NCBI GenBank assembly: GCA_012026685.1
Contig: VEOY01000072.1
Location: 1-43,691 of the forward strand
Source of the DNA: Nitrospirota bacterium
Lineage (GTDB): Bacteria > Nitrospirota > Thermodesulfovibrionia > Thermodesulfovibrionales > UBA6898
Length of the DNA: 43,691 nucleotides
Direction: 5' to 3'
The first letter of the stretch is position 1; each line of letters opens with the position of its first letter. Positions 4,795-10,660 of the stretch are shown piece after piece. A program made the translations under genes and the position numbers. The notes under the pieces are model-generated. The model worked only from the letters and a program-made list of their open reading frames with translations, was not told the DNA's origin and did not search any database.

Positions 4795-6417
4795 TTATGT
4801 TTCGGCACGGTCGGTCAATGAGCCGGTTATTTTATTCTCTATCAGACACTGAAGCATTTCCAGTTCGTCTGCCTCGAACCAGGTTGTCCGACACATATTG
4901 CACCGGTCGATCTCGATAAGGTAAGCGCCGCTGTAAAATGTCCTGAACATCACGTTGCCGCATTTTCGGCATCTGTTCCCCGTCTTCTGGCGGGAGTCCC
5001 TGCCCGTAACTTTGCTTATCGTTGCAGTCCGCTGATTGTCCCTGAGAACAGCAGTCGCCAATGATTTCACCCGGTCCGTGCATCTTTTCTCCCGCCGCGC
5101 AATGATCCGGGGGATCTTGTCATTCTCCACCAGCGTTCCACCGCAGGAATGACACTGGTGGACCTGCGTCCCTTCATACTCGATCATCTTAAGAGGCTGG
5201 CTGCAATTCGGACAAGTATAGCCGGAAGGAGACACCATGCGGAGACTGAGCGCAGAGCTTATCAACTCGCTGTCCGCAGCGCGGAAGGCTGGGCTGCCGG
5301 CCTCTCCCGAAATCCAGGTTCGGGGTGTCAGCCAGGGAATGGCCGTAAGATCTGCAGCGTTGAACGGTCCCTGCCACTGTTGTTTCCTGTCAAGAGCATA
5401 ATATTGGGTGGGAGCTCCGGCATCACCTTCGACCGCTGCATCGGGGCGGTCCTGCAGCGCTGCAAAATCGCCGTATGTCCGATGTGCGTACTGCAGGACA
5501 GTGCGAATACGTTTTATCATCGGCGGATGAGTAGAAAACAGATCAGCGAGCCACCCTTCGGACCCGTCACGGGATTCCGCTGGGCTGGTGATGCACAGCA
5601 TCTCAAGTCCGCTGCTGATCATACCGCCCCCATTCCAGTTCCGTGAGATAATATGAAGCGCTTCGGCAAGGGCGATGGGGTTTTTCGTCATCCTGACCGC
5701 AGCCGCATCGGCGCGATACTCGCGCTCCCGTGATATGAACATGCTCAGCAGACTGCTCAGGTTCAGGAGAGCGAAGAACGCAAAGAAATCAGGCTGATAT
5801 AGCGTCGGCCTGTCATCAGCCGACCATGACTTCAGCTGATCGATGAGAGAGGCGTAGACCCCGAAAAGGCTGGTCGCGATTGAGCTTTCAAGGCAGTCGC
5901 CGGAGATCACGTGATAGGCTTCGTGCGCAATGACCGCCTCAAGCTGCGGCCGGGACAGGCGCGACACAAGACCCTCGGTAATCGCGATTACGGCGTTTCC
6001 CTTCATGTCCGCAGCGGCAAGGGCGTTCAGAGACAGGCTCGGTATGACCAGGCATTCCACCCTGCGCCTGTTCGTGAGCAGCTGCACCTCCTGCATAACA
6101 TTCAGCAGCCTCTGGTGCACAATGTCCTCGGGGTCCGGCTTTACGGCCTTTAACGTCCTGGCAACGGAACCGAGCACGGTCGAGGCCGATATCCAGAAAT
6201 GGATAAACGCTGTGGCAAGGGCACCGACGACGATCACGACGAAAGGAGCATAGGAAGAACTGAGACCTTCCGCGGCAAACCGGAACGGCATCAGAACAAT
6301 GAATATGAGGCCGTAAAGGGCGAGTGCGGTAAAGATGTATAACGACACGAGGAAAGCAAAGAGCAGGCCGATCCGCCATCTCGATCTGCGTTCGATATCA
6401 ATAACGGTAAGGGGCAT
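4795..6417 (-). CDS. Membrane M48 metallopeptidase with GYF-like and zinc-ribbon domains
   Basis: A zinc endopeptidase of the HtpX/M48 type, anchored in the inner membrane and probably acting on membrane proteins. Two membrane helices lie at about residues 15-45 and 55-80. The active-site HEAYH motif is at 165-169, and EYRADA (233-238) supplies the third zinc-binding Glu. After the peptidase come a GYF_2-like module (about 338-385, YYALDRKQQWQGPF) and two zinc-ribbon segments: CPNC-CHSC, then CRKC-CNMC, the latter like zf-TFIIB. At 540 residues it is almost twice the length of HtpX. It lies 15 bases after lemA, and the LemA/M48 pairing is common. Whether the C-terminal modules bind substrate is inference. 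Confidence 0.87.
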   Translation of the reverse strand: MPLTVIDIERRSRWRIGLLFAFLVSLYIFTALALYGLIFIVLMPFRFAAEGLSSSYAPFVVIVVGALATAFIHFWISASTVLGSVARTLKAVKPDPEDIVHQRLLNVMQEVQLLTNRRRVECLVIPSLSLNALAAADMKGNAVIAITEGLVSRLSRPQLEAVIAHEAYHVISGDCLESSIATSLFGVYASLIDQLKSWSADDRPTLYQPDFFAFFALLNLSSLLSMFISREREYRADAAAVRMTKNPIALAEALHIISRNWNGGGMISSGLEMLCITSPAESRDGSEGWLADLFSTHPPMIKRIRTVLQYAHRTYGDFAALQDRPDAAVEGDAGAPTQYYALDRKQQWQGPFNAADLTAIPWLTPRTWISGEAGSPAFRAADSELISSALSLRMVSPSGYTCPNCSQPLKMIEYEGTQVHQCHSCGGTLVENDKIPRIIARREKRCTDRVKSLATAVLRDNQRTATISKVTGRDSRQKTGNRCRKCGNVMFRTFYSGAYLIEIDRCNMCRTTWFEADELEMLQCLIENKITGSLTDRAET

Positions 6418-6432
6418 GAAGAGCCCGGAGCC

Positions 6433-6993
6433 CTACTGTTGCACCGCAGCGGACGGAAGCGCTCTGCGATCATCCGATGAGACAGAAAAGTATTCCGCAC
6501 CTTTGAACCCGAATAGTGACGCAATGATAACATCAGGAAAGACCTGAAGCAGGGTCATGTAGTTTGCTACGAGATCGTTGTACAGCTGCCGGGAAAAGGC
6601 AATGCGATTCTCGGTAGAGACCAGTTCGTCCTGCAGCCTGAGAACATTCTGGTTTGCCTTGAGCTCGGGATAGGCCTCCATTGCGGCAAAAAGCGCCTTT
6701 ACTTCAAGTGACAGCCGGCTTTCTGTTACTGATTTTTCCGGGATCTTCCGTGCAGCAAGAGCTAGGGAACGGGCTTCTGCTACATGCTCGAGGATGTGCC
6801 GCTCATGCTCCATATACCCCCTGACGGCTGCCACGAGATTGGGAATAAGATCATGACGACGTTTGAGCTGGATATCGATCTGGCTCCAGGCATTCTGAAC
6901 ATCATTGCGGGCTGTTACGATCCTGTTATATGAGAATATGCTCCAGAGAAAAAGAGTGACAATGAACGCTATGACGATCCATGCGATCACCAT
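6433..6993 (-). CDS. lemA: LemA family protein
   Basis: A 186-residue membrane-anchored helical protein. An N-terminal hydrophobic helix (residues 2-20) is followed by the family core YNRIVTARNDVQNAWSQID, by QLKRRHDLIPNLV and by a long antiparallel helical domain ending in the YNDLVANYMTLLQVFPDVI segment. LemA proteins have no known enzymatic role. They are usually encoded with M48 peptidases or TPM-domain proteins and are thought to be exposed outside the membrane. The downstream M48 gene is 15 bases away, so the pair is an operon. There is no obvious ribosome-binding site at the ATG; it follows the charge-polarised protein gene by 9 bases. Confidence 0.93.
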   Translation of the reverse strand: MVIAWIVIAFIVTLFLWSIFSYNRIVTARNDVQNAWSQIDIQLKRRHDLIPNLVAAVRGYMEHERHILEHVAEARSLALAARKIPEKSVTESRLSLEVKALFAAMEAYPELKANQNVLRLQDELVSTENRIAFSRQLYNDLVANYMTLLQVFPDVIIASLFGFKGAEYFSVSSDDRRALPSAAVQQ

Positions 6994-7810: not shown

Positions 7811-8125
7811 ATGGATGATTTTCACGAGGTAACCGTCCTAAAAAAAGCAAACGTTTATTTTAACGGTGCGGTCACCAGCCGGACGGTACTGTTTAAAGAC
7901 GGCTCAAAAAAGACGCTCGGTATCATGCAGCCGGGTGAATATGAGTTCAGTACCGCGGATAGAGAGATCATGGAGATACTCTCCGGAGAACTCGATGTTC
8001 TTCTCCCGGGAGAAAAGTCCTGGAGGCACGTACGGAACGGGGAGACCTTTGATGTGCCTGCGCAGTCGAAATTCACCATGAAGGTCACATCCCTGACCGA
8101 TTACTGCTGTTCATTCATAAAGTGA
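7811..8125 (+). CDS. ppnP: Pyrimidine/purine nucleoside phosphorylase PpnP
   Basis: A 104-residue cupin-fold protein (formerly YaiE/DUF1255) that splits nucleosides with phosphate to the base and ribose-1-phosphate. The whole protein aligns with the E. coli enzyme: the YFNGAVTSRT start, the G-MQPGEYEFSTADREIMEILSGEL core, VLLPGE and the NGETFDVPAQSKF turn. Length is standard. A good ribosome-binding site precedes the ATG. It probably has its own promoter, and priA follows 38 bases later on the same strand. Confidence 0.93.
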   Translation: MDDFHEVTVLKKANVYFNGAVTSRTVLFKDGSKKTLGIMQPGEYEFSTADREIMEILSGELDVLLPGEKSWRHVRNGETFDVPAQSKFTMKVTSLTDYCCSFIK

Positions 8126-8163: not shown

Positions 8164-10062
8164 ATGTCATTCGTTGACATCCTCTTTCCCCTGAGCCTGG
8201 GTCCGCTTACCTATCGCTGCCCGGAGGTCCTCGATGAGGCAGCAGAGCCTGGTATGCTCGTGTCTGCCCCGATCAAAAAAAGCATCTCCACAGGTATAAT
8301 CCTGACGAAAAACGTTACCCCCCCCGGCATCCGCGTTAAGGAGATCGCAGGAGTTCATGGAGAGAGGCCGCTATTCAGCCGGACTATGATAAGACTGCTG
8401 ATCTGGATGTCTGAGTATTATCTCGCCACTGCTGGTCTCATCCTTAAACAGGCTGTTCCCAATGAAATGCTCATACCGGTAACATCGAGACGGTCAGCGG
8501 ACGAGTTCCGGGCTGAACCGTACGACCTTCTTTCCATTCCCGGTCCTCACCTCGAGATCAGCACCCGAAGCCTGGGCGCACATTCATATCAAACCATGCT
8601 CCTTCACGCAGCTTCGTCACTGCATGAAATATCTCTTGCGGCATCCCTGGTCCGCACAACTGATAATGTACTGGTCCTTTTCCCGGAGATCACTGCCGCA
8701 AACCGATTCTTCAATACTATCAGGGATCTCGGCAGCCGGACCTGTATTTTACACAGCGATATGTCCGCGGGCAGACGCTCGGACGCCCTGCAGGGCATCA
8801 TCTCAGGCATGCACGATATCGTGATCGGTACCCGTACCGCTCTTTTCGCTCCGATGATGAGGCCCAAACTGATCATCATCATGCACGAGCAGTCAGGCTC
8901 GTACAAGCTTGAGGACGGCATCCGGTTCAATGCACGGGATTGCGCCATCATGCGTGGTTTCCTGGAAAAAATTCCGGTCATGCTCACTTCTGCCGCTCCT
9001 TCAATGGAATCGTGGGCAAATGCAGCCAGCGGCAAGTATCGCCTGATAGATGTGCGGGAAGGTATCACGGTGCCGAAGGCCCGCACCATTGATATGCGTT
9101 TTACCAAAAAAGCTCGTCCCTACCTTTCGAATGCAGTAATCGACACGGCAAAGAGATCAATGAAAAAAAATGAGAAGGTCCTTCTCCTGATCAACAGAAG
9201 AGGACACTCGACCATGCTTCACTGTGCTGAGTGCGGCAATACAGAACGGTGCGACAGCTGCAGCATTCCGCTTGTATTGCACAAAGACGGAAATTTCCTG
9301 CAGTGTCATTACTGCGGAAACAAGGTCCTTATTGCGGAGACCTGCGGGAAGTGTCACAGTCCGCGCCTCGAACTTTTGGGGGCCGGCACACAGAAGATCG
9401 AGGAAGATATACGAGAACTCTTCGGTGTCGAGACCGTGAGGTTCGACAGCGATAAAGCGGTGCGCAAGACAGAGGTCAGGGCCATGCTTGCCCGGGCATC
9501 AGACGCCGCAACAGAGATTGTGGTTGGAACAAAGATACTGCACCGCGTTCTGGGAGGAGTCGCCCGCTTCGGTATGGCCGCCATGCTGAATCCGGATGCC
9601 AGCCTCAATGTGCCCGATTTCAGGGCGAGGGAAAAAGCCTTTCATGAGATTGTCGCGATCCGGGACCTTGTGCATTCTTCAGGAGAGATGCTGCTGCAAA
9701 CCCGATTCTCCCGTGATCCGTTTTTCAAACATATCAGGGATAACGATTTTGCATCTTTTGCCAGCGAAGAACTTTCGCTTCGAAAGGAACTCCGTTTCCC
9801 CCCGTACGCAAAAATGATGGACATCACTGTTTCGGGCAATGCCGGCATCGCCGATAAGGCCGCCCATCTCCTCTCCCTCTTCTCAAAGGAGATAGATATC
9901 CTCGGCCCGTCAGAGAGACGAACGAAAAAGGGGAACATCGAATATTCCATACTCATCAGGCATTCCCAAAGAAAGATCTTGCAGAATGCTGCGCGGGTTG
10001 TGCTGGAAAAGATCGGTCAGACAAAAGGTGTCGAGATCAGGATAGACGTGGACCCTTATTGA
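8164..10062 (+). CDS. priA: Primosomal protein N' (PriA) with degenerate helicase motifs
   Basis: PriA recognises stalled forks and reloads the replicative helicase. This 632-residue product keeps the DNA-binding N-terminus and all eight zinc-binding Cys (354, 357, 363, 366, 381, 384, 394, 397). The motor is altered. The P-loop position reads LLHAASSLHEIS (146-157) instead of a GSGKT motif. The Walker B/DEEH box reads MHEQ (240-243). Motif V reads GTKILHRVL (455-463) rather than the usual GTQMxxKGHDF. The GRAGR arginine-finger region is RDLVHSSGE (500-508). ATP hydrolysis is therefore not expected. Flanking landmarks such as NPDASLNVPDFRARE are intact, so the gene is under selection. Actinobacterial PriA proteins are also known to lack helicase motifs. 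The 3' end overlaps convergent coaE by 26 bases. Confidence 0.9.
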   Translation: MSFVDILFPLSLGPLTYRCPEVLDEAAEPGMLVSAPIKKSISTGIILTKNVTPPGIRVKEIAGVHGERPLFSRTMIRLLIWMSEYYLATAGLILKQAVPNEMLIPVTSRRSADEFRAEPYDLLSIPGPHLEISTRSLGAHSYQTMLLHAASSLHEISLAASLVRTTDNVLVLFPEITAANRFFNTIRDLGSRTCILHSDMSAGRRSDALQGIISGMHDIVIGTRTALFAPMMRPKLIIIMHEQSGSYKLEDGIRFNARDCAIMRGFLEKIPVMLTSAAPSMESWANAASGKYRLIDVREGITVPKARTIDMRFTKKARPYLSNAVIDTAKRSMKKNEKVLLLINRRGHSTMLHCAECGNTERCDSCSIPLVLHKDGNFLQCHYCGNKVLIAETCGKCHSPRLELLGAGTQKIEEDIRELFGVETVRFDSDKAVRKTEVRAMLARASDAATEIVVGTKILHRVLGGVARFGMAAMLNPDASLNVPDFRAREKAFHEIVAIRDLVHSSGEMLLQTRFSRDPFFKHIRDNDFASFASEELSLRKELRFPPYAKMMDITVSGNAGIADKAAHLLSLFSKEIDILGPSERRTKKGNIEYSILIRHSQRKILQNAARVVLEKIGQTKGVEIRIDVDPY

Positions 10063-10660
10063 ACTGATTCCTGCTCTCTTCAGCGAACAGCTGATAAAGC
10101 TTTTTTACCTGCGATCCGGTATGACTCCTGGTGCCGCTGTTGTCAATGCAGTAATCAGCAAGCCGCTTCTTGGTCCGGATATCCATCTGGCTCCGAAATC
10201 GCGCCATGGCATCCTTCCGGCAAACCCCTGAGCTGCTTAACCTTGCAAGAGCGGTCTTCCTGTCGGTAAATACCGTTATCGTCCTGTCAAACTGTCCCTG
10301 GTATCCGCCCTCAAACAGAAGAGGAACCTCAACGATAATAATGCGTCCCCCGCCCTTGACCTTCTTTGCGGAGTCATCAATCCTCATAAGGACAAGGGGA
10401 TGGAGCAATGTTTCAACTTTCTTCCTTAATCTATTGTTATTAAATATCTTGTTTGCCATATATGTTTTATCGATATTGCCGTCGGGGTTCATCAGGCCGA
10501 CTCCGAAAATCCCCATGAGCTGTCCTTTAACAGATTCGTCCTTTAACAGCGACGCGACAATCCTGTCGCTGTTAATAATGACAGCACCCAGATGCCTGAA
10601 CATTTCAGAGACCGTGCTCTTCCCCATGCCATAGTTCCCTGTCAATCCGACCTTCAGCAT
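10037..10660 (-). CDS. coaE: Dephospho-CoA kinase CoaE
   Basis: Phosphorylates the ribose 3'-hydroxyl of dephospho-CoA with ATP, the last step of coenzyme A synthesis. The 207-residue protein has the P-loop GNYGMGKST at residues 8-16, IINSDRIV (Asp of the substrate site), PLLFEGGYQ and the lid/adenine segment ending in RLADYCIDNSG. A perfect TATAAT lies only five bases upstream of the ATG, so the message is probably leaderless. The extreme 3' end overlaps convergent priA. Confidence 0.95.
   Translation of the reverse strand: MLKVGLTGNYGMGKSTVSEMFRHLGAVIINSDRIVASLLKDESVKGQLMGIFGVGLMNPDGNIDKTYMANKIFNNNRLRKKVETLLHPLVLMRIDDSAKKVKGGGRIIIVEVPLLFEGGYQGQFDRTITVFTDRKTALARLSSSGVCRKDAMARFRSQMDIRTKKRLADYCIDNSGTRSHTGSQVKKLYQLFAEESRNQFNKGPRLS

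Follow-up and report, generated by a model that had tools for sequence, protein, structure and literature searches.

The window (the whole stretch of DNA analysed, 43,691 nucleotides) encodes a PriA, which is the restart protein for stalled DNA replication, and as far as its sequence tells, this PriA is without a motor and is not an active helicase. By alignment, it lacks the residues with which PriA binds and hydrolyses ATP. Helicase activity is usually counted as part of the job of PriA, but mutants of E. coli can do without it. We consider it highly probable that this protein, the sole PriA of its genome, serves as an ATP-independent platform for fork recognition and helicase loading.

The open reading frame reaches 337.2 bits with the NCBIfam model of PriA (TIGR00595; curated cut-off 230.35), and Pfam matches above the cut-off were found for the 3' DNA-binding domain (3'BD; PF17764), the cysteine-rich zinc region (CRR; PF18319) and the PriA C-terminal domain (PriA_C; PF18074). 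The Pfam DEAD match is missing from the window PriA and the Helicase_C match is below threshold, while both are strong in intact relatives and in E. coli PriA. The features are as follows:

8164..10062, + strand: priA, motor-dead PriA of 632 aa plus stop, ATG start (TIGR00595, 337 bits; sole copy in the genome)
8164..8460, + strand: 3' DNA-binding domain, residues 1-99, including W81 and Y85 of the SSB-tail pocket (PF17764, 56 bits)
8599..8634, + strand: former Walker A, residues 146-157, LLHAASSLHEIS, with the Lys of GKT changed to Glu155
8881..8892, + strand: former motif II, residues 240-243, MHEQ in place of DEEH/Q
8986..9000, + strand: former motif III, residues 275-279, TSAAP in place of GSATP
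9223..9354, + strand: cysteine-rich zinc region with eight Cys, residues 354-397 (PF18319, 37.8 bits)
9526..9549, + strand: altered motif V, residues 455-462, GTKILHRV versus GTQM(V/I)AKG, with Q457 and G462 lost
9655..9684, + strand: former motif VI/arginine finger, residues 498-507, with Q, G and R lost and a 3-residue deletion
9802..10056, + strand: PriA C-terminal domain, residues 547-631 (PF18074, 34.9 bits)

A sequence-only reading of this DNA had described Walker A, DEEH and the GRAGR region as replaced and motif V as altered. All four descriptions are confirmed at the residues listed above, with RDLVHSSGE occupying residues 500-508 in the GRAGR region. The landmark peptide NPDASLNVPDFRARE that it had named is present at residues 476-490, as are all eight zinc cysteines (354/357/363/366/381/384/394/397), and motif IV (NRRG) is kept. 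A scan of the whole protein found no P-loop pattern anywhere along it. Walker A and B and motifs III, V and VI, by which an active 3'-5' SF2 helicase is recognised, are not in place in the window PriA, and what is found is the pattern of a pseudohelicase, i.e. catalytic motifs lost and the remainder of PriA maintained by selection.

An AlphaFold2 model of the window PriA (pLDDT 68.7, pTM 0.70), built on a six-sequence alignment and weakest in the 3'BD (mostly <50), matches fork-bound E. coli PriA (8fak) with Z 24.9 over 508 residues and winged-helix-deleted E. coli PriA (6dcr) with Z 24.2. Both RecA-like lobes and the PriA fold are predicted from this model to be retained. The earlier statement that the rest of the protein is intact holds for the zinc cysteines, the 3'BD, the C-terminal domain and both RecA-lobe folds, but not for the winged-helix domain, which is absent. 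In E. coli PriA this domain contacts parental DNA. Its model (PF21213) matches E. coli PriA and gives no match in the window PriA or in the class mate tested, and the old P-loop follows the 3'BD after about 60 residues in the window PriA, compared with 134 in E. coli and, for the most part, 125-150 in families f22, f25 and f29. Since the domain is also missing from most class mates with an intact motor, its loss is separate from the motor loss and probably older. For the same reason, and because the domain is not universal in PriA, its absence is not decisive against the PriA identity.

The assembly that holds the window contig (3.04 Mb, 213 contigs, 97.3% complete) was searched for a second priA, the existence of which had been raised from the sequence alone, and PriA was found only once by both protein search and family profile search. 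The other TIGR00595 matches are weak, and those on C90 and C107 fall within the open frames that the RecG profile picks up as RecG and as Mfd-like. The nearest named relatives come from Nitrospirota MAGs (UBA6898, SZUA-452 and UBA6905; 60-67% identity). NCBI classifies UBA6898 no further than as unclassified Nitrospiraceae, and the order is presumably Thermodesulfovibrionales. On the contig, priA sits between a small PpnP-like gene (7811-8125, + strand) and the convergent coaE (10037-10660, - strand), with an overlap of 26 bases between priA and the 3' end of coaE. Further upstream (4795-6993, - strand), an HtpX-like protein of 540 aa adjoins a LemA/MamQ-like protein, which is probably an ordinary LemA because the MamQ model gives 83 bits against a cut-off of 250.

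We collected 148 PriAs. The window's order contributed 77 of them (13 families); except for two sequences from elsewhere, the others belong to further families of its class and phylum. The suggestion that the loss might be clade-wide is borne out, for the motor is lost in all 77 PriAs sampled from the order, with motifs I, II and VI out of place in every one. A lysine stands at the aligned P-loop column in about 1 of 76 order PriAs, with the rest of the motif absent, and the open frames are full-length in nearly all 77 genomes. In other orders of the class (families f15-f21) all helicase motifs are intact, and the sole exception among the sampled class mates is f14, a small family whose PriA is partly eroded. 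In the PriA of genome G044 (f14; L103/L161), motifs II and III are intact, but the P-loop is broken (HIRPGIRKREIYM) and closely preceded by an in-frame TAA; the sister genome G041 (L104) encodes a PriA whose P-loop is intact and whose motif VI is eroded. The f14 PriA may represent a third motor loss in progress, or else a frameshift or assembly error. In the rest of the phylum, the motor is intact in families f22-f28, f30 and f31, and dead in f29 (13 PriAs) and f32 (2 PriAs). A reduced genome of f29 (G223; 2.0 Mb, 99% complete) gave no PriA match, PriA of this family being otherwise motor-dead.

In order to locate what was lost, 77 sites with an invariance of at least 95% among 54 intact relatives were taken as reference columns, and a site was called lost if conserved in <30% of the order and kept if in at least 80%. 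Twenty of the 77 sites are lost and 40 are kept, including all eight zinc cysteines, which are 100% conserved in both the dead and the intact sets. The lost sites are the Q-motif Gln, seven P-loop residues, Tyr159, D240 and E241, three sites of motif III, the Gln and Gly of motif V, the Gln, Gly and Arg of motif VI, and R593. Catalytic motifs hold 19 of the 20 lost sites versus 7 of the 57 remaining ones (Fisher p about 2e-11). Because the loss is so concentrated and affects identical catalytic columns in 77 of 77 order PriAs, it is not a matter of chance. The Walker A Lys, for example, is K in 100% of the 54 intact relatives and E in 81% of the order; in motif II, D240 and E241 are lost and E242 is kept in 98%. 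The set of sites lost in the f29 and f32 PriAs overlaps that of the order.

New residues have become conserved as well. In the order, the former P-loop reads H-A-P-S-x-x-x-E-x-S, with A149, P150, S151, E155 and S157 conserved in the former ATP pocket and T223, S235, N476 and E495 elsewhere, and these residues are absent or rare in intact relatives. The new P-loop residues point to a pocket that was remodelled rather than left to drift, and any role of it is a prediction. The SSB-tail pocket, whose residues were defined in Klebsiella PriA (PMC5531588), is largely preserved in the order (W81 98%, Y85 94%, K291 93%, R603 60%), and the PriB contact residues are kept only in part. In the motor-dead PriAs of f29 and f32, unlike those of the window's order, the Trp and Tyr of this pocket are mostly unconserved.

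Two separate motor losses within Nitrospirota are likely, judging from the best tree, the differing lesions and taxonomy. In a PriA gene tree built with the motif columns removed, the order is a clade of its own (support 100) that groups with the intact class mates (94), a second clade (100) unites f29 and f32 and groups with the intact f22 (96), and the best tree implies two changes from intact to dead. The lesions differ too: the Walker A Lys became Glu in the order, in f29 it became Arg and one residue was deleted, and in this comparison with f29/f32 the 3-residue deletion in motif VI is confined to the order. Moreover, a linker of winged-helix length is retained in f29/f32 and not in the order. 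A single loss, with the dead gene common to the order and f29/f32 through transfer or common descent, has to be set against these observations. Forcing all dead PriAs into one clade costs 20.9 log units, and the AU test does not reject it (p 0.219), but given the tree positions, the lesions and the linker we regard a single loss as unlikely. The convergence suggested in the earlier reading is likely, while the AU test allows one origin. A single loss would concern the history of the gene and not its function, and it is compatible with the platform explanation. A broader and tentative idea, which we think somewhat doubtful as a whole, is that motor loss is recurrent for PriA, having occurred at least twice in Nitrospirota and independently of Deinococcus-Thermus, and that the new pocket signature of the order locks the lobes or docks a DciA/DnaB-type partner.

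If the window PriA is a platform, its 3'BD, C-terminal domain and remodelled helicase lobes would bind D-loops or abandoned forks. The zinc region would shape the path of single-stranded DNA and offer a docking surface, and the conserved pocket would hold the SSB tail. DnaB, the replicative helicase, would then be delivered by PriA, probably together with DciA. Lagging-strand unwinding, when needed, could come from another helicase (such as RecG, or one of UvrD/Rep or RecQ type), or forks whose lagging arm is already single-stranded could be used. The earlier conclusion that restart must work without PriA helicase activity stands for PriA itself, but another helicase could supply the unwinding. 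DciA, a common DnaB accessory or loader, is found in 72 of 73 genomes, equally with dead and with intact PriA motors. Among the factors named in the earlier reading, DnaT and PriC gave no match over the cut-off in 28 genomes, apart from one weak sub-threshold PriC match in G026, and DciA is the probable partner for this reason. The platform role is inferred because of the precedents in E. coli and D. radiodurans, the kept SSB pocket, the presence of DciA and the lack of DnaT and PriC matches; biochemistry on any Nitrospirota PriA was not found in the literature.

Compensation involving RecG was considered, priA300 being a suppressor of recG in E. coli (PMC5055574). Of 101 order genomes, 15 have no RecG, among them most genomes of f3 and f4 (three genomes lacking a match lie outside those listed); in the class, it is also missing in 3 of 3 genomes of f15 at a completeness of at least 95%. 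No association between RecG and motor loss is seen, because f15 is also without RecG with its PriA intact and almost all f29/f32 genomes retain RecG, and the explanation was rejected.

The conserved residues that are new to the former ATP pocket and elsewhere, being absent or rare in intact relatives, could also fit a PriA repurposed as a structural or regulatory binder of forks or D-loops, which takes no part in restart and, e.g., blocks wrong restart or guards 3' ends. We judge this to be distinctly improbable, as the SSB pocket, the zinc cysteines and the C-terminal domain are retained, neither PriC nor DnaT gave a match over the cut-off that could take its place in restart, and the sole motor-dead PriA that was tested retains fork and DnaB binding (PMC4504706).

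The gene is under purifying selection across the order. By the NG86 method, with pairs of dS up to about 1.8, dN/dS is 0.09-0.31 for close pairs of motor-dead order PriAs and 0.06-0.19 for intact pairs, and helicase lobe 1 of the dead PriAs is likewise restrained. At matched divergence, conservation of lobe 2 is 0.312 in dead versus 0.400 in intact PriAs, that of the 3'BD is 0.373 versus 0.279, and that of the zinc region is equal; constraint seems to have moved from the motor to DNA binding. A decaying relic, in which relaxed selection took the motor and the gene is being lost, could draw on the weaker conservation of lobe 2 and on the f14 PriA with its in-frame stop and broken P-loop, but near-universal full-length frames (77 genomes, 13 families), the low dN/dS and the invariant zinc cysteines make it very hard to believe. 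The view of the sequence-only reading that this is a maintained non-helicase PriA and not a decaying gene agrees with the single copy, the order-wide loss, a dN/dS well below 1 and the fully conserved zinc cysteines.

The order and the two families may be taken as natural experiments in which unwinding is uncoupled from fork recognition and DnaB loading, for which the motor-intact class mates are matched controls, and the map of 20 lost and 40 kept sites gives an indication of the residues that belong to the motor and of those that belong to the platform. An order-wide loss with a probably separate second case and a differently remodelled pocket was unreported in the literature searched, most subscription journals being outside it.

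A PriA pseudohelicase is nevertheless a known kind, and the documented precedent for a motorless PriA is in Deinococcus-Thermus, a group that the earlier reading did not mention, where the D. radiodurans protein shows neither ATPase nor helicase activity but still binds forks and DnaB (PMC4504706). Motifs I and II have failed in both proteins; fork binding is kept there and by analogy predicted here, and a motorless restart role is presumed. The D. radiodurans PriA carries Lys to Arg in Walker A and was tested biochemically, whereas the window PriA carries Lys to Glu and is known from sequence; the latter is changed in motifs I, II, III, V and VI, with the motif VI deletion and no winged helix, and belongs to an unrelated phylum. 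The K230A mutant of E. coli PriA can load DnaB in vitro, and in this species the PriA ATPase is dispensable for PriA-PriB restart in vivo (PMC10175261). The window protein is like E. coli PriA in family and fold, and the E. coli mutants K230A and K230R (priA300) are ATPase-dead and still assemble primosomes. Wild-type E. coli PriA, however, is an active helicase with a winged-helix domain and the partners PriB, DnaT and DnaC, while in the window genome DciA is present and neither DnaT nor PriC gives a match over the cut-off. Actinobacterial PriA (NCBIfam PRK14873 series), the precedent named in the earlier reading, is said to lack helicase motifs; the window protein scores far lower with the PRK14873 models than with the PRK05580 models. 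A further comparison is with the class mates of f15-f21, which share the domain order, with the winged helix missing or short in most, and differ in that GVTGSGKTE, DEE[HQ], GSATP and GRAGR are all intact.
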